Shown one piece after another: positions 20,977 through 48,578 of a stretch of DNA of 64,000 nt. This DNA comes from a virus, in the IMG/VR virus record IMGVR_UViG_3300046318_000439, positions 124,001-188,000 of that record. The stretch is one strand, 5' to 3'. A model generated the notes under the pieces. That model was given only the letters and a program-made list of their open reading frames with translations, was not told where the DNA came from and did not search any database. Numbering within the stretch: position 1 is the stretch's first letter; each line of letters starts with the position of its first letter. A program made the translations under genes and the position numbers.

Positions 20977-21537
20977 TTATAAACCTTCGTAGATTGCTGA
21001 ATTGCCAGCATGCTCAAACACTTCAGCACTCTTTAGCTTAACACCTGATCCTACATTATAACGTGCTTGGAAGACGCGACCATCTGGATGTGTCCATCCC
21101 TTACCTTCTTGATACGCTGTTAATATTTCATTCATTGCTGTATAAGCTAGCTTTGAAAACAATTCACAACCAACACCATCCACTACGCGTAGATCACATA
21201 ATGCGCCACGCTCATTAGGTATCTTACTTAAATGATTTTCACTCTCTACATCAACAATTTCATTCATGTGTTCAAAAAAGTCTAGCATAGGATCATCCTT
21301 AGCTACAACCAACGTATGATCAAACATATAGTCAGCCCATTCCTTAAATGCCTTCAGTCCTCCAAAGTCCATAACCCAGTTACGGTCATCTAAAGTTTCT
21401 GATTCGAAAATAAGTTTAATGCCAATTGAGTATCCGTGTAGCAAACTACAGTGACTATGTCTGCTACGCCATTGGCGGAAGCAGCATGATAATCCACGAT
21501 CGGTACCATATGTTTTTGTTGAAAGATATTTTGCCAT
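20977..21537 (-). CDS. queD: QueD/6-pyruvoyl-tetrahydropterin synthase-like enzyme
   Basis: QueD converts dihydroneopterin triphosphate to 6-carboxytetrahydropterin, step 2 of 7-deazaguanine synthesis. The product has the catalytic cysteine region SRHSHCSLLHGYSIG (Cys30, His34), WVMDFGGLKAFKEW, the FDHTLVV motif and the C-terminal glutamate in AEVFEHAGNSA. The usual HGH zinc pair reads HGY here (Tyr36), as I recall in other T4-like phage members. It is larger (186 residues) than E. coli QueD (121). It is encoded just after DNA polymerase; FolE and QueE lie at 41-43 kb. Confidence 0.85.
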   Translation of the reverse strand: MAKYLSTKTYGTDRGLSCCFRQWRSRHSHCSLLHGYSIGIKLIFESETLDDRNWVMDFGGLKAFKEWADYMFDHTLVVAKDDPMLDFFEHMNEIVDVESENHLSKIPNERGALCDLRVVDGVGCELFSKLAYTAMNEILTAYQEGKGWTHPDGRVFQARYNVGSGVKLKSAEVFEHAGNSAIYEGL

Positions 21538-36835: not shown

Positions 36836-37786
36836 TTACTTCTTTTTACCTAGTTTACCAACATCAGCTGTAGCAGACGCCCCGATTGAAGCAAGGTCAG
36901 CCAAACTACCACCGAATACATAACTACCTACGTGCTGCAATTGCATCCATGGGCAGAACCAAACTCTAGCGCCCATGCGTTGAACATTGTAGCAGAACAT
37001 ATAGTCCTCTGACAAGTAACGATGTGATGAGTGAGCTTCACCTTCAACCATTTGCTTAGCTATCTCTTGCAACTCCGCACCTTTACCATCTGCAACATCT
37101 CGTAGCAATTGGTGTAGATTCTCATAACCATATCCACGATCAATAATACAATCGAAGTATGCCATGATCTCACGTGTGCCATCAAAGTGCTCTGTACGAA
37201 CATGATCTGGCTTATAATGCAAATGAGGATATGCCTTTTCATAATCTTCAAATGTCTTACGACGTACCATCATAAAGCCTGTACCAATCTCCATCACCTC
37301 AACAGGAGCGCCAATTGGAATTTCTTTCTGTGAGCCTTTAGGGTTAAACACATAGTCTCCAACAAACTTCTCAAGCACGTTTGGATCTTTATCTGCAACA
37401 CCTTTATCAACCGCTTGCTTAATTTTTTCCCACGAAATACATTTCTTAGGATATGGGCCACCCATAACATCATATGGACTTTCGTCTGTCATAAGAGCCA
37501 ATAATGCTAACACGTCTTGTGGATTAAATCCAATATCAGAATCGATAAACATTAGATGGGTTGCACCACTGCGCATAAACTCATCCACACAATAGTTACG
37601 AGCACGAGTGATTAACGATTCGTTGAATAGGAAGTATAACTGTAAAGGGATTTGATACTTAGCACAAACTGCAGAGAGGTCTGCAACTGATCTAGTGAAC
37701 ATACCAGCACACTGTCCACCATACATCGGAACTGCTACGAATAGTTTACGTTTTTGCAGTTCTGAAATTTCAACATTAATTTCCAT
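36836..37786 (-). CDS. Glycosyltransferase, GT-A type
   Basis: A 316-residue protein: KLFVAVPMYGGQCAGMFTRS at the N-terminus, the region ARNYCVDEFMRSGATHLMFI, then DSDIGFNPQDVLAL with the metal-binding DSD motif. MGGPYPKK and GTGFMMVRRKTFEDYEK follow, as in Anp1-like glycosyltransferases. It overlaps the dCTP deaminase gene by 11 bases. It could modify DNA, capsid or host surface sugars; nothing in the sequence decides. Its position next to nucleotide enzymes makes DNA a candidate. Confidence 0.8.
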   Translation of the reverse strand: MEINVEISELQKRKLFVAVPMYGGQCAGMFTRSVADLSAVCAKYQIPLQLYFLFNESLITRARNYCVDEFMRSGATHLMFIDSDIGFNPQDVLALLALMTDESPYDVMGGPYPKKCISWEKIKQAVDKGVADKDPNVLEKFVGDYVFNPKGSQKEIPIGAPVEVMEIGTGFMMVRRKTFEDYEKAYPHLHYKPDHVRTEHFDGTREIMAYFDCIIDRGYGYENLHQLLRDVADGKGAELQEIAKQMVEGEAHSSHRYLSEDYMFCYNVQRMGARVWFCPWMQLQHVGSYVFGGSLADLASIGASATADVGKLGKKK

Positions 37787-38288
37787 TATTTTTCACTCCA
37801 TATTTTTCATCATGTGATTTACCGACACCATAGTCTCCATCATATTTATGTAGTGCTTGAGCATCAAAGCTTAAATATTGACCGATGCGAGTACCTTGTT
37901 TAATCCTCGCTGGACCCACACCGACGTGTAATACACCAGCCATGACACCATGGTACCCGGAATCATAAAGACCAGAAGTAATAAACAACCCATTACGATT
38001 GAGAGTAGAACGAGTGATGACCCAACCTGCCTCTCCCTCACCGACATTAATAATATTCTCCATGACAACCTCATAATCCCCAGGCTGTAATGTATAGTAT
38101 CCCTCAGCATCCGGCTCAAGTGCGGCTTCGGTGCCTCTATGCTTCTTATGATCGTTAGAAATTTCGAATACATCATTCTTAATCGGAAATATCTTACCTA
38201 AACGCAAATCCACAGCATTAGGTTGTACGTCCCCCTCCTGTACGTTTGTTAGTGATGATTTTGAGCCTTCGCCCATAATATGCTTCAT
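37776..38288 (-). CDS. dcd: dCTP deaminase / dUTPase family protein
   Basis: The start at 38288 (ATGA overlap with the kinase gene) gives 170 residues. Family blocks: VQPNAVDLRLGKIFPI, the trimer motif GWVITRSTLNRNGLFI, then GLYDSGYHGVMAGVLHVG and RIGQYLSFDA. These match the dCTP deaminase/dUTPase fold, which makes dUMP or removes dUTP. Which of the two reactions it performs cannot be fixed here. Confidence 0.88.
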   Translation of the reverse strand: MKHIMGEGSKSSLTNVQEGDVQPNAVDLRLGKIFPIKNDVFEISNDHKKHRGTEAALEPDAEGYYTLQPGDYEVVMENIINVGEGEAGWVITRSTLNRNGLFITSGLYDSGYHGVMAGVLHVGVGPARIKQGTRIGQYLSFDAQALHKYDGDYGVGKSHDEKYGVKNNGN

Positions 38289-38842
38289 AGCCAATTCCAC
38301 TCCTGTAGTTTTTTATCAAATGCTTTTAATACTTCGTCTGTAAATTCTCGTAGCGTAGACTTATTCTCTAGCACTAGATTACAAACGGAGTTATCAAAAC
38401 CACGTTCCGTAATATGAGTATCGATAATTCCAAGAGGTCTATCAATCTTCACAATTTTTGCTCCTAGGTTCTGAAGATGAATCAATTCATTATCGAAACG
38501 AAGGTCTGTAATCACCCACACTGCATCTTCCGATGCAATTCTTTCATCCACATACTCTACAAACTGATTTACATCATATTTTCGCATCAACATACCGATT
38601 TCACGAACAACACGACGTCCATCTACTGATGTACTGTTGGACACTAGTATAGACCGTTTAAATGCGTCATACTCAGCAATCGTTTTTAGTCCAAATATAT
38701 GCATAATCTCACGTTTAATTGGATCAGCAAATGCAATGCGTCTAAAGGGACGATCAGTTGTAGAATAAGCATCTAGAAGGATATCAGCTACAGTATCCTT
38801 CCCACAACCTTTAGCTCCTGTTAATGCAATTATCTTCGACAT
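38285..38842 (-). CDS. Deoxynucleoside monophosphate kinase (T4 gp1 family)
   Basis: It phosphorylates dNMPs to dNDPs. The P-loop is LTGAKGCGKDTVAD (residues 7-20); RRIAFADPIKREIMHIFGL and VWVITDLRFDNELIHLQNLG are typical of the gp1 family. 185 residues, shorter than T4 gp1 (241). If modified deoxynucleotides were made as monomers it would matter, but with DpdA the modification is introduced in DNA. Confidence 0.9.
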   Translation of the reverse strand: MSKIIALTGAKGCGKDTVADILLDAYSTTDRPFRRIAFADPIKREIMHIFGLKTIAEYDAFKRSILVSNSTSVDGRRVVREIGMLMRKYDVNQFVEYVDERIASEDAVWVITDLRFDNELIHLQNLGAKIVKIDRPLGIIDTHITERGFDNSVCNLVLENKSTLREFTDEVLKAFDKKLQEWNWL

Positions 38843-39717
38843 AGACGATCAATCACTCCAATATTAAATTTTACAACATCATCGTGCGCTTTCACTTCAT
38901 GATTGTAGCTGAAATTAACTTCAGACTCAACTTTGCCGTGTTCAAGGCCAGACGGGGAGCGATCGAAGGGTACCCCATTAATACCAGCCCACACAGCTGC
39001 TGATGAGTCCCATGAATAGATATATGGTTGATATTCTCGTAATAACTCAATCTCGTTTGGACCATCTGTCATACCCAAGCAGTGAAACTTCTTAATAGCT
39101 CTTGCTGGTTGCAATAGTCCACGGTCATCTAATGACTTAAACATCATCCATCGTGATAAGAAACGTTGCAGTTTGTATGCGTCATTGCGTTTACCATCAC
39201 CGTGCTTAGACTCATTTACTTCAAATGCAATAGGACATGCTAGAATAGATACACCAATCAAATCCACTTCTGGATTCTCAATAGCCCATTCATATGAATT
39301 CATAATACCTTCCACATCACCCAATTCACTTTGAGGAACATAGAATGTACCGAACCCAGCATCCTTCAATTGAGGAATCTGTTTGATTGCTGTGTTCATT
39401 GTTTTCGACCATTCTTCTTTTGGATAGTCAGACATAACAATAACATCAGCCTTACAACGCTTACCCATCTCAATTAACTTGTTCGGATCATACATTGGAC
39501 GACCTTGCTTAAACATCTCGAAAGCTGAGTTGTCCATAATCTTTACTTTACCATCATCTAGATTAGCATAGTAGTCAGCATATGCTGGATCTTGTTCCAC
39601 AAGATGAGCAAGCAATAAGTGAGCTCCATTAGTTTTTGTATATCTGTCTAGGAAGTGGGTGGGAGCAATGTGACAGAATTTAATTCCATCATTAATATTT
39701 TTATTTAAGGGTGTCAT
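38830..39717 (-). CDS. dpdA: DpdA-like DNA/tRNA-guanine transglycosylase family protein
   Basis: The TIM-barrel pattern of guanine transglycosylases is present: KIMDNSAFEMFKQG (Asp62, like DSGGFQ of TGT), VIVMSDYP (Asp97), GTFYVPQSELGDVEGI, DLIGVSILACPIAF, the HCLGMTDG block (212-219) and YSWDSSAAVWAG (Asp237). This matches the phage DpdA type, which swaps guanine in DNA for a 7-deazaguanine. The zinc site of tRNA-specific TGT is not seen. FolE and QueE genes follow within 4 kb. It overlaps the dNMP kinase gene by 13 bases. 295 residues. Confidence 0.75.
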   Translation of the reverse strand: MTPLNKNINDGIKFCHIAPTHFLDRYTKTNGAHLLLAHLVEQDPAYADYYANLDDGKVKIMDNSAFEMFKQGRPMYDPNKLIEMGKRCKADVIVMSDYPKEEWSKTMNTAIKQIPQLKDAGFGTFYVPQSELGDVEGIMNSYEWAIENPEVDLIGVSILACPIAFEVNESKHGDGKRNDAYKLQRFLSRWMMFKSLDDRGLLQPARAIKKFHCLGMTDGPNEIELLREYQPYIYSWDSSAAVWAGINGVPFDRSPSGLEHGKVESEVNFSYNHEVKAHDDVVKFNIGVIDRLCRR

Positions 39718-39748
39718 TTAATTTTAGCCTTGTTGTTAGATTGTTGCA

Positions 39749-40192
39749 TTATCTCTCAAAGTAGATACGGCAACCATTTTCATTATCTTCTGATACTTCA
39801 ATGCGGATCTCACGAGAAGGCCACGTCACTGCAATCTTGTCGTATAAATCTTTTGCAGTCATTTCACATGATTTGTAATCTACTGATAATGTCTTCTCAC
39901 TATACCAGCTTTCTAGTATTCTTTTCAACTGGATAAACTCTACATCTCGGTTGTCGTGGAATACTTCCATCTCTACTCTAAAGTGAAAGATATGGCGGTG
40001 AGGCGATGCCAAGAAACTAACATCAAGCCAATCGCCTGTTGCTAGTTTCGGATCGGTCGCTGCTGCTGGATATCTGTGAATGCCTTCTTTTTGAAATGTG
40101 ACCCAGATAAAAGACCTAGGCAACTTACCAATAGTAAAGTTATCCTCAACTCCATCTGGTAGTGTGTATGTTATTTCAGTAGGTGTGCTCAT
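39749..40192 (-). CDS. Small protein, possibly T-fold (QueD-like)
   Basis: A 147-residue protein. The central SPHRHIFHFRVEMEVFHDNR resembles the HGH region of QueD/PTPS enzymes, followed by VEFIQLKRILESWYS and a YKSCEMTAKDLYDKI helix; the end has IRIEVSEDNENGCRIYFE like the last strand of T-fold proteins. It lacks a clear catalytic cysteine at the usual site. T4-like cyanophages have similar small proteins. It sits between the DpdA-like and PD-(D/E)XK genes. Confidence 0.65.
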   Translation of the reverse strand: MSTPTEITYTLPDGVEDNFTIGKLPRSFIWVTFQKEGIHRYPAAATDPKLATGDWLDVSFLASPHRHIFHFRVEMEVFHDNRDVEFIQLKRILESWYSEKTLSVDYKSCEMTAKDLYDKIAVTWPSREIRIEVSEDNENGCRIYFER

Positions 40193-40665
40193 ATTTTTAA
40201 CTTCTTCATGTTAATAAAACTTGGTATATTATCGCAATAGAGTAATATCGTTCTGTTACCCCATTGATCGGTGTATACGCGATATTCACTAGCATTATTG
40301 GTAACAAACTGTTGCATATCCTTACGTTTATATAATACAGCATCATGCGTATTAATGTCAATATGGATAATAAACTCACTAATCTTTTTAGGGTTGAATA
40401 ACCAACCACGTGGTCCTACCTCAACGTAAAACCGTTTGTTGTTGAGATTGCCTTTGACATCAACAGTAAACAATTTGTCACCCTTTTGCACAATAAAATC
40501 AATTCCTGATACCTGATCGTGATAATCGCTTTCACGGTCGTGAGCAATCATTCCTTGATTTGCAACGTGTTGTGCGTATAGCAATTCAGCTGCTCGTCCT
40601 TTTGCTCCGTTAGCCCCATATGCTCCCTCAAGCGTCGGTGTCCATTCTGGTGTCAATCTAGACAT
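40189..40665 (-). CDS. PD-(D/E)XK-type nuclease-like protein
   Basis: The ATG at 40665 has GGAG upstream and gives 158 residues. GIDFIVQKGDKLFTVDVKGNL fits the PD...(D/E)xK core of restriction-type nucleases (Asp of GIDF and DVK). An upstream acidic helix (KGRAAELLYAQHVANQG) and the ARPRGWLF-type later strand fit too. It overlaps the T-fold-like gene by ATGA. In a phage with modified DNA, a nuclease that spares its own genome is one idea, but the target is unknown. Confidence 0.7.
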   Translation of the reverse strand: MSRLTPEWTPTLEGAYGANGAKGRAAELLYAQHVANQGMIAHDRESDYHDQVSGIDFIVQKGDKLFTVDVKGNLNNKRFYVEVGPRGWLFNPKKISEFIIHIDINTHDAVLYKRKDMQQFVTNNASEYRVYTDQWGNRTILLYCDNIPSFINMKKLKI

Positions 40666-40683
40666 AAAACTCCATAATAAAAA

Positions 40684-40711
40684 AGCCCACACCCAATTAA
40701 GAGTGTAGGCT
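40684..40711 (-). terminator. Intrinsic terminator after the HTH gene
   Basis: On the minus strand AGCCTACAC...GTGTGGGCT forms a 9-bp stem (one G-U) with a ten-base loop, followed by TTTTTTATT. It lies 17 bases after the HTH gene stop and before the PD-(D/E)XK gene. Confidence 0.85.
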
Positions 40712-40728
40712 CATATCACTTGTTTATA

Positions 40729-40992
40729 TTAAACGCGTGAGAACAATGCATCTGCGCCTAACAAAGCAACAGCTGCTGCAACCATACGACGGCTTGGTGT
40801 GCCCAAGCGATACTTCAAAGTCTCGCGACCTTTAGTATCTGTATGTTTGTTCAAGTAGATCGCATGACCTTCTTGACGTAGCAAAGACACTACTTTGCGT
40901 GGTGATGCAATGTTAAACTGCGCACCAATTTGCTTAGCTGTCAATTGACGGCCTTCTTGTAACACATTCAATACTTTCTGCTTTTGATTCAT
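40729..40992 (-). CDS. Small winged helix-turn-helix protein
   Basis: An 87-residue protein with KVLNVLQEGRQLTAKQIGAQ, FNIASPRKVVSLLRQEGHAI, then YLNKHTDTKGRETLKYRLG. Helices 2-3 plus a beta wing suggest a DNA- or RNA-binding regulator. The C-terminus is hydrophobic (MVAAAVALLGADALF). It has its own promoter (41043-41070) and terminator, so it is a single-gene unit. Confidence 0.8.
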   Translation of the reverse strand: MNQKQKVLNVLQEGRQLTAKQIGAQFNIASPRKVVSLLRQEGHAIYLNKHTDTKGRETLKYRLGTPSRRMVAAAVALLGADALFSRV

Positions 40993-41042
40993 ATAGTACT
41001 CCTACAAAGTTAATAACATAATCTGGAAACCAGAATGTTCAT

Positions 41043-41070
41043 TCTATAGCATAATTAAAAAAGAAGTCAA
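41043..41070 (-). promoter_or_regulatory. Sigma-70-type promoter for the HTH gene
   Basis: TTGACT (41070-41065), 16 bases, TATAGA (41048-41043) on the minus strand, about 50 bases before the ATG. The -35 is good, the -10 slightly degenerate. Confidence 0.6.
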
Positions 41071-41073
41071 CTG

Positions 41074-41766
41074 TTATTTGTTACTACCAATACGGGCAAT
41101 GTTCAAAAACTCACGACGCACTTCTGAATCGGGAGCTGAGAACAGACCACGGGTTGATAATGTAACAGTTGATGAGCCTGTGTCTTGAATGCCACGGCTC
41201 TTGACGCAGTAGTGGGCAGCGTCAATGTATACAGCGACGTGTTCTGTCTCTGTAATAAATGCAATTGCTTCACAGATCTGCTCTGTTAGACGTTCTTGCA
41301 CTTGTGGGCGCTTTGCAAAGAATTCTACAATACGGTTTAGCTTAGATAAGCCAAGAACCTTCTTGGTTGGAATATATGCAACAGTCGCCAACCCATCAAT
41401 AACTACAAAGTGGTGTTCGCAGTTAGATTGGACGTTAACATTACGCTCAAGAACAAATGAATGGTTGTAATCCATTTTGTTTTCGATCGTAGTGCATTTT
41501 GGGAACTTTGTGTAATCAAGACCCCAGAAGATTTCGTTGACATACATTTTCGCTACACGGTTAGGGGTATCTTCCAAAGAGTCATCATTTAAGTCAAGAC
41601 CAAGAGTATCCATAATCTGTTTGAATAATGGAGCAATCTCTGCAATCTTATCTTCTGATGGACGGAGAACTTTATTAGTGATAGGCGTTTCCAAGCCTTT
41701 TGATAATAAATGTTGGTGAACGCGCAAACCAAGTTCTGCATTCGCTTTATGCACTGGATGTGACAT
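41074..41766 (-). CDS. folE: GTP cyclohydrolase I FolE
   Basis: It converts GTP to dihydroneopterin triphosphate, the first step of both folate and 7-deazaguanine synthesis. Zinc ligands are Cys116 and His119 (SNCEHHF) and Cys187 (HYCVKSRG), with the spacing of the E. coli enzyme. PNRVAKMYVNEIFWGLDY, GLSKLNRIVEFFAKRPQVQE and QDTGSSTVT complete the pattern. 230 residues, normal length. It has its own promoter and a leader whose last hairpin covers the ribosome site. QueE follows two genes upstream and QueD is at 21 kb. Confidence 0.94.
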   Translation of the reverse strand: MSHPVHKANAELGLRVHQHLLSKGLETPITNKVLRPSEDKIAEIAPLFKQIMDTLGLDLNDDSLEDTPNRVAKMYVNEIFWGLDYTKFPKCTTIENKMDYNHSFVLERNVNVQSNCEHHFVVIDGLATVAYIPTKKVLGLSKLNRIVEFFAKRPQVQERLTEQICEAIAFITETEHVAVYIDAAHYCVKSRGIQDTGSSTVTLSTRGLFSAPDSEVRREFLNIARIGSNK

Positions 41767-41777
41767 AGATTGTATTT

Positions 41778-41828
41778 CCTTTCAGGTTGTCGGTGGAAAG
41801 GTCAAGGACCACCAGAATGATTTCTGGT
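41778..41828 (-). promoter_or_regulatory. Hairpins in the folE leader; one covers the ribosome binding site
   Basis: Hairpin 1: ACCAGAA/TTCTGGT (41811-41817 with 41822-41828), 4-nt loop. Hairpin 2: CCTTTC/GAAAGG on the minus strand (41801-41796 with 41783-41778), 12-nt loop; its 3' strand holds the AAAGGA ribosome site ten bases before the folE ATG. Opening or closing it could control FolE synthesis. No known riboswitch family is recognised. Confidence 0.55.
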
Positions 41829-41864
41829 ATACTACTTATAAAAAAATAGCACCACTTGGATGCC

Positions 41865-41893
41865 ATTTTATATCTTTAAATGTCTAAAGTCAA
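41865..41893 (-). promoter_or_regulatory. Sigma-70-type promoter for folE
   Basis: TTGACT (41893-41888), 17 bases, TAAAAT (41870-41865) on the minus strand. The leader to the folE ATG would be about 92 bases. Confidence 0.65.
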
Positions 41894-41909
41894 CTATCAG
41901 TTGTAATGA

Positions 41910-42233
41910 TTATGCACATTGTTTTTCCATTTCAGCATACCATGCTTCTTGCTCACGTTTACGCTCATCATCAAGCCACTTAGCGCGCTGAGCAAGCTCA
42001 GGATCAGTCTCCTCTATTACCCAACCCTGCTCTCGTAAATGCTCACGACCTTGGAAGGTCTGCTTGAGTTCGTCCATTTCATTATGGATTCGTTGAATCT
42101 GACCCTCAAGAAACTCTTGATCGTTCCATTGCTCATTACTCACCCAACGAGGACGGAATCCATAAAAGTCTTTATGGAAATCGCTAAATTCACATTGGAG
42201 CTTTTCTACTACTGTAAAATCATCCCAAGACAT
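41910..42233 (-). CDS. Small charged protein of unknown function
   Basis: The ATG at 42233 (GAGAGAGG upstream) is chosen; the frame is open further up but that stretch contains a promoter and starts at the preceding terminator. The 107-residue product begins MSWDDFTVVEKLQCEFSDFH, has GFRPRWVSNEQWNDQEFLEG and a C-terminal charged helix (DDERKREQEAWYAEMEKQ). No family is known; the RPRWVSNEQW element occurs in T4-like phage proteins. Confidence 0.75.
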   Translation of the reverse strand: MSWDDFTVVEKLQCEFSDFHKDFYGFRPRWVSNEQWNDQEFLEGQIQRIHNEMDELKQTFQGREHLREQGWVIEETDPELAQRAKWLDDERKREQEAWYAEMEKQCA

Positions 42234-42263
42234 TTCAAAACCTCTCTCAATTAACATATAACC

Positions 42264-42292
42264 ATTATCCGGTTTTATTAATAAAAGGTCAA
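42264..42292 (-). promoter_or_regulatory. Sigma-70-type promoter
   Basis: TTGACC (42292-42287), 17 bases, GATAAT (42269-42264) on the minus strand, 30 bases before the ATG at 42233. Confidence 0.62.
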
Positions 42293-42331
42293 CAGCTAAA
42301 ATAACGTGTAAATATTGGGTAGGATACAAAA

Positions 42332-42354
42332 ACAGCCCACATAAAATGGGCTGT
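42332..42354 (-). terminator. Intrinsic terminator after the phosphoribosyltransferase gene
   Basis: ACAGCCCA/TGGGCTGT, an 8-bp perfect stem with a 7-nt loop, followed by TTTTTG on the minus strand. It ends the QueE-phosphoribosyltransferase unit 22 bases after the stop. Confidence 0.85.
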
Positions 42355-42376
42355 ATAATGTTATTTTAAATCTAAT

Positions 42377-42850
42377 TTAGGTCGGAGTTGAGGGGGTTGA
42401 GGTTGAACCTGGATCAGATTCCCACCAAAAATGTACCCATTCTTTATATGACTCACGACTAATAGTGGTACCACAATAATCTGGCTTGATGCTTTGGTCT
42501 TTGTTATAAATCATAACAGCAATACCAACCTTATCTCGGCCGCAGCCCCAATCTTCTAACAACTCTTTCATTGTACGGCCAGAATCTAAAATATCATCTA
42601 CTAACAACACATTCTTGCCTTCAGCAATATCTTCCGCGATATCTAATGCCGATTCCCTCATTTGATCGCTATGAAAAGTTGACCACGACACTGTACGCAT
42701 TGGAATACCTAAACGATGCGATAGATACACAGCAGGAATTGCACCGCCTCTCACAATACCGACAACGTAGTCGTAAAACTTACCAGAACCAGTAATTTGA
42801 TGTACCAATGAGTCTGCATCTTGTTTGAATTGATTATATGAATAATACAT
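42377..42850 (-). CDS. Phosphoribosyltransferase, purine type
   Basis: The PRPP-binding motif is VLLVDDILDSGRTM (81-94), preceded by VGIVRGGAIPAVYLSHRLGI, like xanthine-guanine or hypoxanthine phosphoribosyltransferases. 157 residues, with a Pro/Thr-rich tail. It is one base from queE and close to folE. It may recycle purine bases or, more speculatively, handle 7-deazaguanine bases. No direct evidence decides. Confidence 0.85.
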   Translation of the reverse strand: MYYSYNQFKQDADSLVHQITGSGKFYDYVVGIVRGGAIPAVYLSHRLGIPMRTVSWSTFHSDQMRESALDIAEDIAEGKNVLLVDDILDSGRTMKELLEDWGCGRDKVGIAVMIYNKDQSIKPDYCGTTISRESYKEWVHFWWESDPGSTSTPSTPT

Positions 42851-42851
42851 T

Positions 42852-43733
42852 TTATTTTCCTATCACGTTACCGAACACGTAACAATGATTACGTGTAGCT
42901 ACATTAAATCCTCGTTTCATTGCTTCAATACTAATCTTAGCAACTTGTTCATCTTCTTGTTGATCTTTCGTAGCACCAACTGGCATCACCCAGAAGTCTA
43001 CTGGAAGTGAAGAAGCAGCGTAGATATCTTTTACAGCTTGATCTACTTCAGCCCAGCATGCATCTGTTCCATTAACCACAAACTTAACCACATGCGTGTA
43101 GCCAGCCTTAATATAAGAAGCAATCACTTCAGGCTTCACAGCATCTTTCTCACCAGACACCGTAAACAGTTTAGGCGACATTGCGAAGTGGAAATCAATT
43201 CCAGAATAATGAATCATCTCTTCCATCGCTGGAGTAATCTCTTTAGTGGCATTGGTCTCAATTGTAATCAGCTTAGGCATGTTATCACGCTTCTTAAGCT
43301 CTTCTACGACAGCAATCATAGCCTTCTGCCACATCATTGGCTCGCCACCAGTAAAACACAATTGTGTGTCAATTCCTGTAATAGGATGAACCCATTTACC
43401 TTCTGGATTAGTTTCATGCTTAAGCATGTCAATCAACTTATTGCCAACTTCTTCTTCATTATTGTCTTGTACTAAATGCTTATACTTGGCTGACCAGGAG
43501 TAAGAAGAGTCACATCCATGCTTCCATACTGGCAAGTCTTCAATACGATTAACAGTACTGATATCAAACGTTGCATATGGTAAGATGTATGTTTCTGGAT
43601 TGGTAGGATCCGATTGTCCGAATCCATTACATTCTAGGTTACATCCAAAGAATCGAATCCAAGCACTAGGCTTGCCAGCATATAATGCCTCACCTTGGAA
43701 ACTATAAAACATTTCTGATATTCTAATTTTCAT
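42852..43733 (-). CDS. queE: QueE-like 7-carboxy-7-deazaguanine synthase (radical SAM)
   Basis: QueE makes 7-carboxy-7-deazaguanine. The start FYSFQGEALYAGKPSAWIRF is like QueE (SxQGEG..G...FIR). The cluster cysteines are C31 and C35 (FGCNLECNGFG) and C74 (KHGCDSSYSW): the third is 38 residues beyond the second, a much longer spacer than in normal QueE. TGGEPMMWQ, ETNAT and FHFAMSPKLF follow. 293 residues, about 70 longer than E. coli QueE. It overlaps the small membrane gene by ATGA and forms a unit with the phosphoribosyltransferase. Confidence 0.88.
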   Translation of the reverse strand: MKIRISEMFYSFQGEALYAGKPSAWIRFFGCNLECNGFGQSDPTNPETYILPYATFDISTVNRIEDLPVWKHGCDSSYSWSAKYKHLVQDNNEEEVGNKLIDMLKHETNPEGKWVHPITGIDTQLCFTGGEPMMWQKAMIAVVEELKKRDNMPKLITIETNATKEITPAMEEMIHYSGIDFHFAMSPKLFTVSGEKDAVKPEVIASYIKAGYTHVVKFVVNGTDACWAEVDQAVKDIYAASSLPVDFWVMPVGATKDQQEDEQVAKISIEAMKRGFNVATRNHCYVFGNVIGK

Positions 43734-43999
43734 TTAATAAACCACCTAAAGATGCCGATCATGTCGACAATAATAAAAAATGCATTCTGTAAGAGCATAG
43801 GATAGTCTTTTAGCTTGCTAAAGACAACGACTAAAAGTATATGAGCAAAAAGGAATGATACAAACCCCCACCGCGATATCTCTATATTAAGAGCTAACAC
43901 GCCTCCAGAAAATATGAAGAGAGTTGTTGCTATCCATTTAAATAGTACCGTCCAGTTTAACTGGAGGTAGGTCTGAAGGCTTGTAATATACTTCACCAC
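43730..43999 (-). CDS. Small membrane protein overlapping the deformylase gene
   Basis: The frame has three hydrophobic segments (VLFKWIATTLFIFSGGVLAL, FVSFLFAHILLVVVF, NAFFIIVDMIGIFRWF). There is no in-frame ATG early; a GTG at 43999 is used, giving 89 residues and a 62-base overlap with def. A later start is possible. Its last helix is like that of the 33.0-kb membrane protein. Function unknown; PnuC-like origin is possible. Confidence 0.62.
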   Translation of the reverse strand: MVKYITSLQTYLQLNWTVLFKWIATTLFIFSGGVLALNIEISRWGFVSFLFAHILLVVVFSKLKDYPMLLQNAFFIIVDMIGIFRWFIK

Positions 44000-44495
44000 G
44001 TTTCGTTTGCCTGTCTAATTGTTTCTTTTGGTTCCATGCTCGATTGAGGTGCGGAACTGATGCACGCTTAGTAAAGATGATACCATCCAAATGATCCATC
44101 TCATGTAAGAACCCTCTAGCTGTCATGCCAATAAACTTTTCCGTATGAGTATCACCATAACAATCCTCATAACGAACTTTAATTACCTTAGGGCGCTTTA
44201 TTTTAATGAATAAATTTGGAAAAGTCAAGCAACCTTCATCCAATAAAACCATTTCAGATGTTTGGTCAATGATACGAGGATTAAAACACACCAACGGTTC
44301 TGCTGACCATAAAGCAAATACACGGTATGGAAGACCGCATTGGTTGGCAGACAGTCCTAGACCTTTGTTGTCCTTCATCGTTTCGATTAGATCGTTGGCC
44401 AGTTGTATAGGATCAGTAGGAGGATTAGAAAAGTCAAAATCTTCCATCTCTTGATACAGCAGCTTGTCTGTAGTTGGTTTAATTTGTAATATCAT
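43938..44495 (-). CDS. def: Peptide deformylase
   Basis: It removes the formyl group from new proteins. Motif 1 GLGLSANQ (45-52), motif 2 EGCLTFP (87-93, metal-binding Cys), motif 3 FLHEMDHLDG (His131, Glu132, His135). 185 residues, a full enzyme, slightly shorter tail than bacterial forms. Phage deformylases are known from marine cyanophages, where they may help turnover of membrane protein. It is the first minus-strand gene after the plus-strand HNH gene. Confidence 0.93.
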   Translation of the reverse strand: MILQIKPTTDKLLYQEMEDFDFSNPPTDPIQLANDLIETMKDNKGLGLSANQCGLPYRVFALWSAEPLVCFNPRIIDQTSEMVLLDEGCLTFPNLFIKIKRPKVIKVRYEDCYGDTHTEKFIGMTARGFLHEMDHLDGIIFTKRASVPHLNRAWNQKKQLDRQTKRGEVYYKPSDLPPVKLDGTI

Positions 44496-44552
44496 TATGC
44501 AATCCGACTAAAGTTGTTTTTAATATATATGTTCATAAAGGAGACCTTTTAT

Positions 44553-45197
44553 ATGATAATGGATAAAATAATTAAATTCAACAAGCACTCGTCTAATAAA
44601 AAACAGATGGATGATCTAGGCATTGAAGATAAAAATGGTATTTACGAGCTGCCAGTATCTATTTTTTTAGATAAATTTCCTTGTTCAAACATAGTTAAGT
44701 TGAATTGTATATGCATGTCATGCAACACCACATACAGTCTCGCTGTCAGTGACTACACGAGAAAAAAACACAAAAACTACTGTTCCATATGTCTAAAGAC
44801 AAAGATTCTTACTGGACCAGCCGCTTCTCAATATGGTAAACATCATAATGCTGGAAAACAAAAAACAGAAGAACATAAGATGAAAATGAAAGGCCCTCGC
44901 GACAACATGAAGGGACATTTAAATCCAAACTGGAATCCTAATACTCCAGCGTTTAAGAGATATAAGAATAGAGTTCACCAACTTTCAAACCGAACATACT
45001 ACCGTCACCAACTAATTATCAACCCCTGCAACCATCCTCGAACTCTAGCAGGTGTGGAAGGAGGATGGCAGCTTGATCACATAATCTCAGTGAAAGAATG
45101 TTATAAGCTAGGATTGAGTGAAGAACAAGCATCGGCTCTAGAAAATTTACAGATGTTACCATGGAAAACCAATTTATTGAAATCAACTACCCGTTGA
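44553..45197 (+). CDS. HNH homing endonuclease, the only plus-strand gene
   Basis: The ATG at 44553 has AAAGGAGA upstream; 214 residues. A zinc ribbon (CICMSCNTTYSL and CSICLKTK) is followed by a NUMOD3-like KTEEHKMKMKGP stretch and the HNH-type core GGWQLDHIISVKECYKLGLS with NLQMLPWKTNLLKS. It is oriented against all neighbours and ends 15 bases inside the end of gp46. This orientation and its type mark it as a recent mobile insert. Confidence 0.88.
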   Translation: MIMDKIIKFNKHSSNKKQMDDLGIEDKNGIYELPVSIFLDKFPCSNIVKLNCICMSCNTTYSLAVSDYTRKKHKNYCSICLKTKILTGPAASQYGKHHNAGKQKTEEHKMKMKGPRDNMKGHLNPNWNPNTPAFKRYKNRVHQLSNRTYYRHQLIINPCNHPRTLAGVEGGWQLDHIISVKECYKLGLSEEQASALENLQMLPWKTNLLKSTTR

Positions 45198-46907
45198 AGC
45201 AATACGGCTAAAGTTTTTATGTTTTTCAAACTTTATGGTATGCTCAAACTTGTCCGCTAGCTGATCGCCTTTATGACTTATGATGAATGTATTAGTGTCG
45301 CTTGTTAAACCATTTAATATTTTTAAGAATTCATCTGTGCCAGACGAGTCTAATGAACTATCGAATACTTCGTCCATAATGAGAAGATTAGTAGAAGCAC
45401 TATTACGAAGCTTAGCAACAGCTCTCCAAGCAAATAGGAGGGCCAAGTCAATGCGCATCTTTTCACCTTCTGAAAAACTATCGTAAGTAAATTCATCTCT
45501 AAACCTCGATTTAATTGTCTCTTCAAAATTCTCGTTTAGCTCAAAGCTAACGAAGAAGTCCATTGCTGCAAGATACTTGTTAATTAATTTATTAATAATT
45601 GGAACATACTGTTTAATAATTTTAGTCTTAATACCAGAATCTTTCAACAGCACAGCGGCAATATCAAATACTTGTTTATCTTTTGACAGTGTTTCTTTAT
45701 CTGCAATTGCTGTCTTTAAATCTTCTTTAAGCTGTTTGATCTCTTCGTTATTAGCATCAATGTGTTTAGTATTTGCTCCAATATCTTCTATTTCTTTGTT
45801 GATCTGAGTCACAAATGTAGACCAAGTTCTAATCTGTACTAGAAGATCAGACACTTCACGGTTGCGTGCAGTAATAGTAGATGATATCTTAGCAATCTCA
45901 GACAAACGCTCATTGATGCCAGTTAACTCTTCAGCTATCTGCTGCTTACCTCGTTCAATCTCAGCTACTTGATTATTATTAGTCTCAAGGATTGATGTTT
46001 TGTGAGTGTGTTCAATGCCCTGGCGGCATGTAGGACAATCGTCGTGCGATTCGAAGAATGTAATATCTTTTTTAATCTTATCTAAACGATTATCTACTTT
46101 TCTAGCAAGGTCTTGTACAGTATCTAACTTCTTACGTACCTTGTCTTGATCGACGACCGTCTCGGATAACTTTTCAATCTCAGAACTAATCTCAGCCACT
46201 TTACCATTAGCAGCTGTAATGTCATCGTTTACTTTTTGTAATTGTTCATTCTTTTGTTTGATTAATTCATCATTATTCTGCTTCAATGATTCGATATGCT
46301 TCTTATGCATTTCGATCTTTTCCGCACTACCTTTGATCTTGTAGTCAACGTCAGTGGCTTTAATCCTATTGTATGCAATCTTATCCTTTAGGATAGAATT
46401 CATTGTAGAGAATATTTGGATATCGAGCAGATCTTCTACAATTTCTCTACGATGAGATGTAGGCAGCTGCATAAAAGGAACAAAGGAAGCTGAACCGAGA
46501 ATAACAATCTGCGCAAAAGACTTTTGGTTTAGCTTGAGAATTTGACTCTCAAGCATCTCTTGATATTCTTTAGCATCAGCGTTTTGATCTAATAGATTGC
46601 CTTCGCTGTAGATTTCAAATACATTAGGTTTGATGCCACGAACTACTTTGTAATTCTTTTTACCAATGGAAAACTCTAACTCTACGACAGTACCTTTACC
46701 GTTGATTGTGTTGATTAGTTGATTCTTATTTACTTTTCTAAATGGCTTGCCATACAAACCAAAAGACAAGGCATCTAATATGGTAGACTTACCAGCTCCA
46801 TTCTCACCAACAATCAATACAGTCTTATAACTATCGAATACAATCTCAGTGAATGTATTTCCAGTACTTAACAAGTTCTTCCAACGGATACTTTTAAAGT
46901 ATATCAC
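45183..46907 (-). CDS. 46: Recombination endonuclease subunit gp46 (SbcC/Rad50-like)
   Basis: ATPase partner of gp47, resecting DNA ends. Walker A VGENGAGKST (33-42), a long coiled coil with the zinc hook CPTCRQGIEHTH in the middle, the signature FSEGEKMRIDLALLFAW and Walker B NLLIMDEVFDSSLD. 574 residues (T4 560). The start is a GTG at 46907 with GGAG upstream. It is three bases after gp47. Confidence 0.95.
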   Translation of the reverse strand: MIYFKSIRWKNLLSTGNTFTEIVFDSYKTVLIVGENGAGKSTILDALSFGLYGKPFRKVNKNQLINTINGKGTVVELEFSIGKKNYKVVRGIKPNVFEIYSEGNLLDQNADAKEYQEMLESQILKLNQKSFAQIVILGSASFVPFMQLPTSHRREIVEDLLDIQIFSTMNSILKDKIAYNRIKATDVDYKIKGSAEKIEMHKKHIESLKQNNDELIKQKNEQLQKVNDDITAANGKVAEISSEIEKLSETVVDQDKVRKKLDTVQDLARKVDNRLDKIKKDITFFESHDDCPTCRQGIEHTHKTSILETNNNQVAEIERGKQQIAEELTGINERLSEIAKISSTITARNREVSDLLVQIRTWSTFVTQINKEIEDIGANTKHIDANNEEIKQLKEDLKTAIADKETLSKDKQVFDIAAVLLKDSGIKTKIIKQYVPIINKLINKYLAAMDFFVSFELNENFEETIKSRFRDEFTYDSFSEGEKMRIDLALLFAWRAVAKLRNSASTNLLIMDEVFDSSLDSSGTDEFLKILNGLTSDTNTFIISHKGDQLADKFEHTIKFEKHKNFSRIASTGS

Positions 46908-46910
46908 TAA

Positions 46911-47972
46911 TTACTCCACGCTTAATGCTTCATGATAAAGAGTTCTAATTAAATTATCAAGCCTTTGACGATCACCTTGAATTTGCATTTGATCGACATA
47001 CTTGTTAAGAATAGTAAGCGTATCCTCTGCTTCATTCACAATATCATCATCGGCTTCTAAATCGAGGTGGAAGTGATCCTCCACAACCTGCATATCAAGA
47101 ACGCCAGCCTTTTCGAGTTTATCCACATACATATCAAACCAATGCGGATTTGTTTTATTACGAACGATGATCTTTACAATTGTGCCTCTGTACTGCTCAA
47201 AGTTTACATTCAATACATCGTCCATACTCCCTACGGCATCATCGTAGTGGACCTTATGGAACATTACGTTAGGATTAGGAACAAACGTCAATTGTTTTGT
47301 ATCTGTATCGAATATATGGAACCCTTTAAGGTCATTGAAATCAGACCATGTTATCTCATATGGTGTTCCGAGATACTGAATATTCTTGTGCGATGATTTG
47401 TGGTGGAAGTGACCAGACAATACCATAGGATGTTTTGCAAATGCGTCCATTGGCATACCTTCATCACAAACAGCGCCACGATACATTTCGAAACCAGCAA
47501 TCTCAAAATGTCCAATTATAACATCAGCGCTTGTTGACGCAATAGCATCTAAGCATTGCTTCTCGTTAGCTTGACAAATCCATGGAACCATTAAGAATTT
47601 ACAATCTTCAAATTGTATTTCCGTTGGGTCCTCATATACACTAACGTTACTATACTCTTTCAGTAGTAACGTCAATGAGTTAACTTCGTTTGTATTTTTG
47701 TAGTAGGTGTCATGGTTGCCAATAATAACACGACATGTGATGTTCTGCTTAACCATTGGATCGAAGAAATAATCTCGACACGACTTCAGTGTCTGAAAGT
47801 TAATATATTTTCTTCGGTCGAATACATCTCCCATTTGTATTACATTTGTAATACCGTGTTCTTTTAAGTATGGAAAGAATATATCGTTATAAAACTTCTC
47901 GAAAAATGCATGGAAATGAGGGCTATCATTCCTCGCACCAAAGTGCGTATCTCCTAATACAGCAACTAACAT
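46911..47972 (-). CDS. 47: Recombination endonuclease subunit gp47 (SbcD/Mre11-like)
   Basis: Nuclease of the gp46/47 complex. Metal motifs: LGDTHFGAR, QMGDVFDRR, VIIGNHDTYYK, IIGHFEIAG and LSGHFHHKS. 353 residues (T4 339). It lies between gp55 and gp46, an order found in T4-like phages. Confidence 0.95.
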   Translation of the reverse strand: MLVAVLGDTHFGARNDSPHFHAFFEKFYNDIFFPYLKEHGITNVIQMGDVFDRRKYINFQTLKSCRDYFFDPMVKQNITCRVIIGNHDTYYKNTNEVNSLTLLLKEYSNVSVYEDPTEIQFEDCKFLMVPWICQANEKQCLDAIASTSADVIIGHFEIAGFEMYRGAVCDEGMPMDAFAKHPMVLSGHFHHKSSHKNIQYLGTPYEITWSDFNDLKGFHIFDTDTKQLTFVPNPNVMFHKVHYDDAVGSMDDVLNVNFEQYRGTIVKIIVRNKTNPHWFDMYVDKLEKAGVLDMQVVEDHFHLDLEADDDIVNEAEDTLTILNKYVDQMQIQGDRQRLDNLIRTLYHEALSVE

Positions 47973-47975
47973 TAA

Positions 47976-48578
47976 TTATTCCTCAGGATCAAGTTTGGGT
48001 ACGTCTAGCTCTATATCTTCTATGTCTTCTACGTTTGCCCCTTCATCCTCTAGGAAATTTTCAATTCCTTTTTTTCTTTTCTTTTTCTTTGTTATTAGAT
48101 TATCTTCGAAGTTTTTAATAAAATCGAACATATTCTCATTACCTAAATCTACATAAGCTGGTGTAATATCCTTCTCATCAAACTCACTCTGTTCAATCAA
48201 TTCGTTGAGAATCATACTATTTTCTAAACTCTTATGCTTAATGTATAATTGTTTCTTCTCTTTTAGAATACGACGTAAAAAAGCATAGTAGATAATCTGC
48301 GTAAAGTATGCAAAAGGATTAGTCGATTTAAGAGGATCAAAATTATCAATGTAGCAGATACAGTTCTCTACTCCATCCGAAATCATTTCTTCTCTGTAAG
48401 AGTAGTTGACGAAGTTTGGTTTTGTAGATAGTCTATTTGCAATCATAAGAATGCATGCTCCTACATAATTAGGAATCTGAGGACGCGGCGCACCCTTTTC
48501 CCTAGCTTCTAAAACCTTCTGTCTGTATTCAACTATGCAAGCATATAACTGCTTGTTGTCAACATAGTGCGTAACCAT
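47976..48578 (-). CDS. 55: Late transcription sigma factor gp55
   Basis: gp55 directs RNA polymerase to TATAAATA late promoters, which are seen here before virion genes. The product has the family pattern: DGVENCICYIDNFDPLKSTN, PFAYFTQIIYYAFLRRI, similar to region 2 of sigma factors. A lysine-rich stretch and an acidic C-terminus follow, the latter suiting contact with polymerase or clamp. The ATG at 48578 has GGAG upstream. 200 residues (T4 185). Confidence 0.92.
   Translation of the reverse strand: MVTHYVDNKQLYACIVEYRQKVLEAREKGAPRPQIPNYVGACILMIANRLSTKPNFVNYSYREEMISDGVENCICYIDNFDPLKSTNPFAYFTQIIYYAFLRRILKEKKQLYIKHKSLENSMILNELIEQSEFDEKDITPAYVDLGNENMFDFIKNFEDNLITKKKKRKKGIENFLEDEGANVEDIEDIELDVPKLDPEE

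Follow-up and report, generated by a model that had tools for sequence, protein, structure and literature searches.

Comparison with described systems

In the formation of 7-deazaguanine bases, QueC converts 7-carboxy-7-deazaguanine (CDG) into 7-amido-7-deazaguanine (ADG) and subsequently into preQ0. The preceding steps, in which FolE, QueD and QueE together provide CDG, are established for homologues (PMC6884629; PMC13329287). This study concerns a predicted DNA-modification system of this kind on a stretch of viral DNA of 64,000 nucleotides, called the window here, which comprises bases 124001-188000 of the 202,272-bp IMG/VR virus record IMGVR_UViG_3300046318_000439. The system includes FolE, QueD, QueE, a DpdA-like transglycosylase and a protein with the fold of QueD, here called gX, which most likely stands in for QueC, as the distribution of both genes suggests (Table 1). 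The contig, which stems from environmental DNA, is assigned to a T4-like phage because its DNA polymerase matches those of cyanophages at 50% and because it carries a deoxynucleoside monophosphate (dNMP) kinase and other T4-type genes.

The DpdAs of Campylobacter phage CP220 and Flavobacterium phage immuto, which we take to be the group named DpdA3, belong to the same fold group as the window protein, show the same catalytic motifs and are accompanied by FolE, QueD and QueE, in immuto also by a phosphoribosyltransferase (PRT). However, they form a separate clade with approximately 25% identity to the window protein, and their contigs contain QueC rather than gX. Work by Cui and colleagues from 2023 is said to describe DpdA3 enzymes as able to replace all guanines. 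High levels of dADG, the deoxynucleoside of ADG, have been reported for the CP220 lineage (PMC6884629). Enterobacteria phage 9g (DpdA1) also has FolE, QueD and QueE, and the three aspartates recur in its transglycosylase, but the phage encodes Gat-QueC and makes dG+ in an archaeosine system (PMC6884629). DpdA2 was defined from Vibrio phage nt-1 (PMC6884629); nt-1 and the Schizotequatrovirus phages are T4-like as well and have FolE, QueD, QueE and a TGT-fold DpdA2 (TGT, tRNA-guanine transglycosylase), whereas QueC and dPreQ0 are reported for them (PMC12028318) and the structural similarity is much weaker. Cellulophaga phage phiST carries QueD, QueE, FolE, a gX homologue and DpdA without QueC, as the window phage does, and its cluster also contains MazG. 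The gX homologue (CGPG_00067, 31% identity) lies two genes from the DpdA (CGPG_00065), which belongs to the same fold group as that of the window; however, phiST is a 79-kb Cbastvirus and not T4-like, its DpdA is only about 26% identical, and its PRT is located elsewhere in the genome. The base of phiST was probably among those measured by Cui and colleagues.

The DpdA-like transglycosylase

In sequence and profile searches, the DpdA-like open reading frame (ORF) gave no match in Pfam or NCBIfam, and its family profile found nothing in Pfam, NCBIfam or the PDB by sequence alone, so that a comparison of folds was needed. The TGT family model missed even known phage DpdAs, and its negative result was therefore left unused. 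Before structure prediction, the protein was aligned with 55 relatives from environmental sequences (50-70% identity), and the AlphaFold (AF2) model reached a predicted local distance difference test score (pLDDT) of 91. All of the 50 best PDB matches to this model are TGTs (E 3e-7, probability 1.00), which bears out the original prediction of a DpdA-like TIM-barrel protein at this position. Together with other phage DpdAs, the residues D62, D97 and D237 align with D89, D143 and D264 of the E. coli TGT, and they are invariant in 60 relatives. Direct profile comparison with hhalign connects the protein to the DpdAs of CP220 and immuto (4e-16) and to those of phiST and Chryseobacterium phage MA9V-3 (8e-17), while no significant profile similarity was found in a direct comparison with DpdA1 of 9g. 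Among viral models, a Rhizobium-type relative is the first structural match, followed by the phiST protein, and the nt-1 protein ranks further down (3.6e-5).

The CP220-type DpdAs form a clade of their own with a support of 0.997, and the window protein lies outside it. It belongs to a so far unnamed DpdA clade, whose environmental relatives number in the hundreds; at least 288 places in IMG/VR were confirmed, 80 of which were kept for the analysis. The C-terminal cysteine-rich zinc motif of TGT is missing, and the protein probably acts on DNA. Behind the shared S157, the window-type DpdAs carry an invariant hydrophobic segment, I-L..P, those of phiST and MA9V-3 K-L/I..P, and the QueC-linked DpdAs mostly F-D..YY. 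Its position corresponds roughly to the part of TGT that reads the 7-substituent, the mapping being approximate, and the difference between gX-linked and QueC-linked DpdAs would fit a different inserted base.

A QueD-fold protein directly upstream of dpdA

The gX gene was overlooked in the original prediction. Its AlphaFold model has a pLDDT of 93 and matches archaeal PTPS and E. coli QueD best among PDB structures (E 1.6e-5). A profile alignment with QueD (8e-4) and a MAFFT alignment pair the same residues: H39, H65 and H67 of gX fall on the zinc histidines of QueD, and E110 on the ligand-anchoring glutamate. However, the catalytic residues C27, D70 and H71 of QueD are missing from gX and its homologues. 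According to the model, gX is therefore best described as a QueD-fold protein that is not QueD; it should retain a binding site for a ligand resembling pterin or guanine and should not run the QueD reaction, as conserved zinc histidines and ligand glutamate without the catalytic residues point to another reaction with a ligand of related kind. The SCEM motif of gX is invariant in environmental relatives, and its SCE core is kept in the named phages.

A collection of bacterial and archaeal genomes contained only 11 gX matches, all in metagenome-assembled genomes, and several of these contigs are phage-like in that they encode a family-B DNA polymerase and, near gX, folE, queE or queD. The start of gX is overlapped by an ORF at 40189-40692 on the minus strand, which is weakly YraN-like and possibly of the PD-(D/E)XK type (NCBIfam E 4e-4) and has homologues in the same position in about a dozen relatives.

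Exchange of gX and QueC

Wherever the upstream DNA spans 900 nt or more, which is the case in 69 loci, gX precedes dpdA, with a median gap of 23 nt. The 25 loci with 7.5 kb of upstream DNA contain FolE in all cases, QueD and QueE in 24 each, a PRT in 14 and QueC in none; counts of this kind within a clade are not phylogenetically independent. The original prediction had noted the absence of QueC from the window, and this extends to the whole 202,272-bp contig, possibly incomplete, in which neither a PF06508 match nor an [SG]GGxDS motif in six frames was found. A search of whole contigs of window-type relatives was positive in 1 of 45; the match, in contig G017, was rejected as QueC, being a fragment at the contig edge that lacks the N-terminal motif. 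The contigs with CP220-type DpdA show the opposite picture, with QueC in 29/32 and gX in 0/32. Because gX occurs in 69/69 loci without canonical QueC, as opposed to these numbers, we consider it most likely, from gene distribution, that gX takes the place of QueC.

A stronger point than the counts within one clade is that the same state, gX present and QueC absent, is found again together with TGT-type proteins that are unlike each other. Phages phiST, MA9V-3, ACP17, Xanthomonas phage X1, BUCT-ZZ01, Paride and Phosso encode gX and QueE, and none of the seven has a QueC match above the cut-off; in X1, ACP17, BUCT-ZZ01 and Paride the TGT-like neighbour of gX differs in type and has a DSGG motif. 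PA5oct and RHph_I1_18 are further isolated phages with gX.

In Paride, ACP17, X1, Phosso and BUCT-ZZ01, four of which have the DSGG-type protein, a glycosyltransferase-like protein with an E..ETRYT motif adjoins gX (locus regions L114 4314-7459, L115 4692-7375, L116 4446-7363, L117 6998-8469 and L119 5727-8548). The copy of Paride matches Glycos_transf_1 weakly (E 1e-3), and a sugar on the 7-deazaguanine base of these phages is conceivable.

FolE, QueE and QueD

The three early enzymes named in the original prediction were all recovered. FolE is full-length and carries its zinc ligands in the CEHH and HYC motifs. The QueE-like radical SAM enzyme remains below the bacterial NCBIfam cut-offs; it has the cluster cysteines C31, C35 and C74, the last one after a phage-typical insertion, and a TGGEP motif. 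The QueD gene adjoins the DNA polymerase gene, away from the cassette. Its product scores under the NCBIfam QueD cut-off and has equivalents of C27, D70, H71 and E110 of E. coli QueD, while the zinc-histidine positions H16 and H33 are replaced, as in the QueD of immuto, phiST, ACP17 and BUCT-ZZ01. That gX might provide the zinc site absent from this HGY-type QueD was considered and dropped, since immuto has this type and no gX.

Proposed pathway

With the TGT fold and a cassette conserved across many phages, a 7-deazaguanine DNA-modification system, as originally predicted, is well supported. The computations show the identities of the genes, the folds, the conserved residues, the cassette and the exchange of gX and QueC; that DNA is the substrate and DG (7-deazaguanine) the product, the chemistry of gX, guanine recycling and the restriction shield are inferred from these. 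In the reading that we prefer, with a probability of roughly 55%, the phage makes a 7-deazaguanine base with gX in the place of QueC, and DpdA exchanges guanine in the DNA for 7-deazaguanine (DG) after replication. FolE, QueD and QueE would form CDG, and gX, as a T-fold protein with a zinc site, would run the last step by decarboxylating CDG to DG. The DpdA-like enzyme would then cleave the glycosidic bond of guanine via a covalent intermediate at D237, as in the TGT mechanism, and insert DG, which would give 2'-deoxy-7-deazaguanosine (dDG) in DNA. This nucleoside lacks N7, a contact point of many restriction enzymes, and the modification would probably protect the DNA from cleavage by bacterial enzymes. 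That gX is found where a sister DpdA lineage has QueC speaks for a base that the phage makes itself and that is not preQ0, in the simplest case DG. Decarboxylation is preferred because it is the simplest conversion of CDG for a small T-fold enzyme that has a metal site and no ATP site. The carboxy form, or preQ0 via host QueC, which had been expected as the product when gX was overlooked, appears less likely than DG.

Cui and colleagues are said to have named a CDG decarboxylase DpdL, and dDG is reportedly a known phage base. The reaction proposed for DpdL is the one suggested here for gX, and gX may be DpdL. If so, the chemistry has already been predicted, and the DpdA clade, its spread, the exchange of QueC and gX and the structural evidence are what is new.

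Several observations weigh against this pathway. Searches of Pfam, NCBIfam and the PDB with the gX profile gave no sequence-level match to any characterised enzyme, decarboxylation was chosen for chemical economy, and the contig may continue beyond its known ends. D479 encodes gX together with a QueC-like protein, which was not accepted as canonical QueC on account of its non-canonical motif SGIDS. The PRT is absent from 11/25 cassettes and is also present in the QueC system of immuto. Faecalibacterium phage Roos (L118 7022-8890) combines gX, a TGT-like protein and a transporter similar to YhhQ (PF02592, 2e-42); no QueE was found in Roos, which fits the processing of CDG poorly unless the host supplies it. 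Roos is perhaps a salvage version and challenges gX as a CDG decarboxylase.

Alternative explanations

DpdA could insert CDG itself, giving its deoxynucleoside dCDG, with gX in another role such as channelling of the base or assistance to DpdA. We regard this as unlikely, although the three known enzymes end at CDG, QueC is absent, and dCDG is reportedly a known phage base. A fully conserved additional T-fold protein with metal-site residues would be odd if no chemistry remained to be done, and a carboxylate might call for a basic residue, yet none is conserved after S157 in 60 window-type DpdAs; the DpdAs of phiST and MA9V-3 do carry a lysine there. CDG was also raised in a 2019 study for phage Bipper, which has no QueC (PMC6884629).

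Supply of preQ0 or ADG by host QueC, with phage FolE, QueD and QueE only raising the flux and gX as an accessory, seems improbable to us. QueC is present in many hosts, and in E. coli the DpdA of 9g by itself incorporates preQ0 from the host at a low level (PMC6884629); however, if host QueC were sufficient, the alternation of gX and QueC between sister DpdA lineages would be left unexplained.

Very little speaks for genes that serve queuosine in host or phage tRNA. The TGT fold and a phage-encoded tRNA-Asn with a GTT anticodon, a queuosine substrate, would agree with a TGT-like protein acting on tRNA, but the protein groups with the DpdAs of modified-DNA phages and not with TGT, it has no C-terminal cysteine-rich zinc motif, and without QueC there is no route to preQ1 in the contig. 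Entry of the base via the nucleotide pool, in which the PRT and dNMP kinase of the cassette would make 7-deaza-dGTP for the polymerase, is very unlikely, since the PRT is missing from many cassettes in which dpdA is constant, the kinase is an ordinary T4-like gene, and phage CAjan requires DpdA for insertion (PMC6884629).

Phosphoribosyltransferase and other neighbouring genes

The GPT-type PRT was likewise overlooked in the original prediction. Its family profile matches purine and xanthine-guanine PRTs in the PDB at 5e-30 to 1e-16 (purine PRT 5e-30, xanthine-guanine PRT 3e-17), and NCBIfam gives xanthine PRT below the cut-off only, a match that does not fix the base preference. BUCT-ZZ01 has a PRT beside QueE that is annotated as xanthine-guanine phosphoribosyltransferase, Paride has a PRT-like ORF beside QueE, and in immuto the PRT lies between QueE and FolE. 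Every insertion by base exchange releases one guanine, which makes recycling an attractive role: the PRT may convert the guanine released by DpdA to GMP, which would feed the GTP pool used by FolE. As the PRT is not specific to gX systems, it fits a role tied to DpdA and not to a particular base. No usable source for a PRT link was found in the literature.

The dNMP kinase is a frequent neighbour downstream of dpdA in many loci, and no role in base modification is assumed for it. At 36836-37786 on the minus strand, a weakly GT2-like protein, 50-79% conserved in related loci, is encoded between the clamp gene and a dCTP-deaminase-like gene. An HNH endonuclease-like ORF at 44514-45197, probably a homing endonuclease, stands alone on the plus strand amid minus-strand genes, between peptide deformylase and recombination genes. 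Outside the window, at about 38000-48100 of the contig (L008 1-10080), approximately six radical SAM genes cluster near tail-fibre-like repeat proteins.

Table 1. Genes of the predicted modification system and its neighbourhood, with positions in the window.
Gene product	Position	Strand	Length (aa)	Evidence and remarks
DpdA-like DNA guanine transglycosylase (predicted)	38830..39717	-	295	Predicted catalytic D62, D97, D237; AlphaFold fold, hhalign, motif alignment
gX, QueD-fold (T-fold) protein	39749..40192	-	147	phrog_17812 (function unannotated); candidate last-step enzyme replacing QueC, possible CDG decarboxylase
FolE, GTP cyclohydrolase I	41074..41766	-	230	Pfam 2e-56; NCBIfam FolE equivalog 302 bits vs cut-off 202
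QueE-like radical SAM enzyme	42852..43733	-	293	PHROG QueE 5.6e-47
QueD-like enzyme (HGY subfamily)	20977..21537	-	186	PTPS 1e-11; PHROG QueD 1.5e-32
GPT-type purine phosphoribosyltransferase	42377..42850	-	157	Phosphoribosyl pyrophosphate (PRPP) loop; C-terminal W....WE hood; family profile vs PDB
Deoxynucleoside monophosphate kinase	38285..38842	-		Pfam DNMK 2.5e-20

Biological significance

A wider picture, which we offer tentatively and hold to be rather doubtful as a whole, is that plain 7-deazaguanine takes the place of guanine, perhaps of all of it, in a large group of aquatic T4-like phages, with a QueD-fold decarboxylase instead of QueC and a guanine PRT that closes the guanine loop to GTP and FolE. 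The analysis links phrog_17812 and a DpdA clade, both nameless, to a specific and testable DNA base, and it shows that, from one sister DpdA lineage to the other, a QueD-fold protein cleanly replaces QueC. It also suggests a way for a phage to deal with the freed guanine when a large share of its guanine is exchanged.

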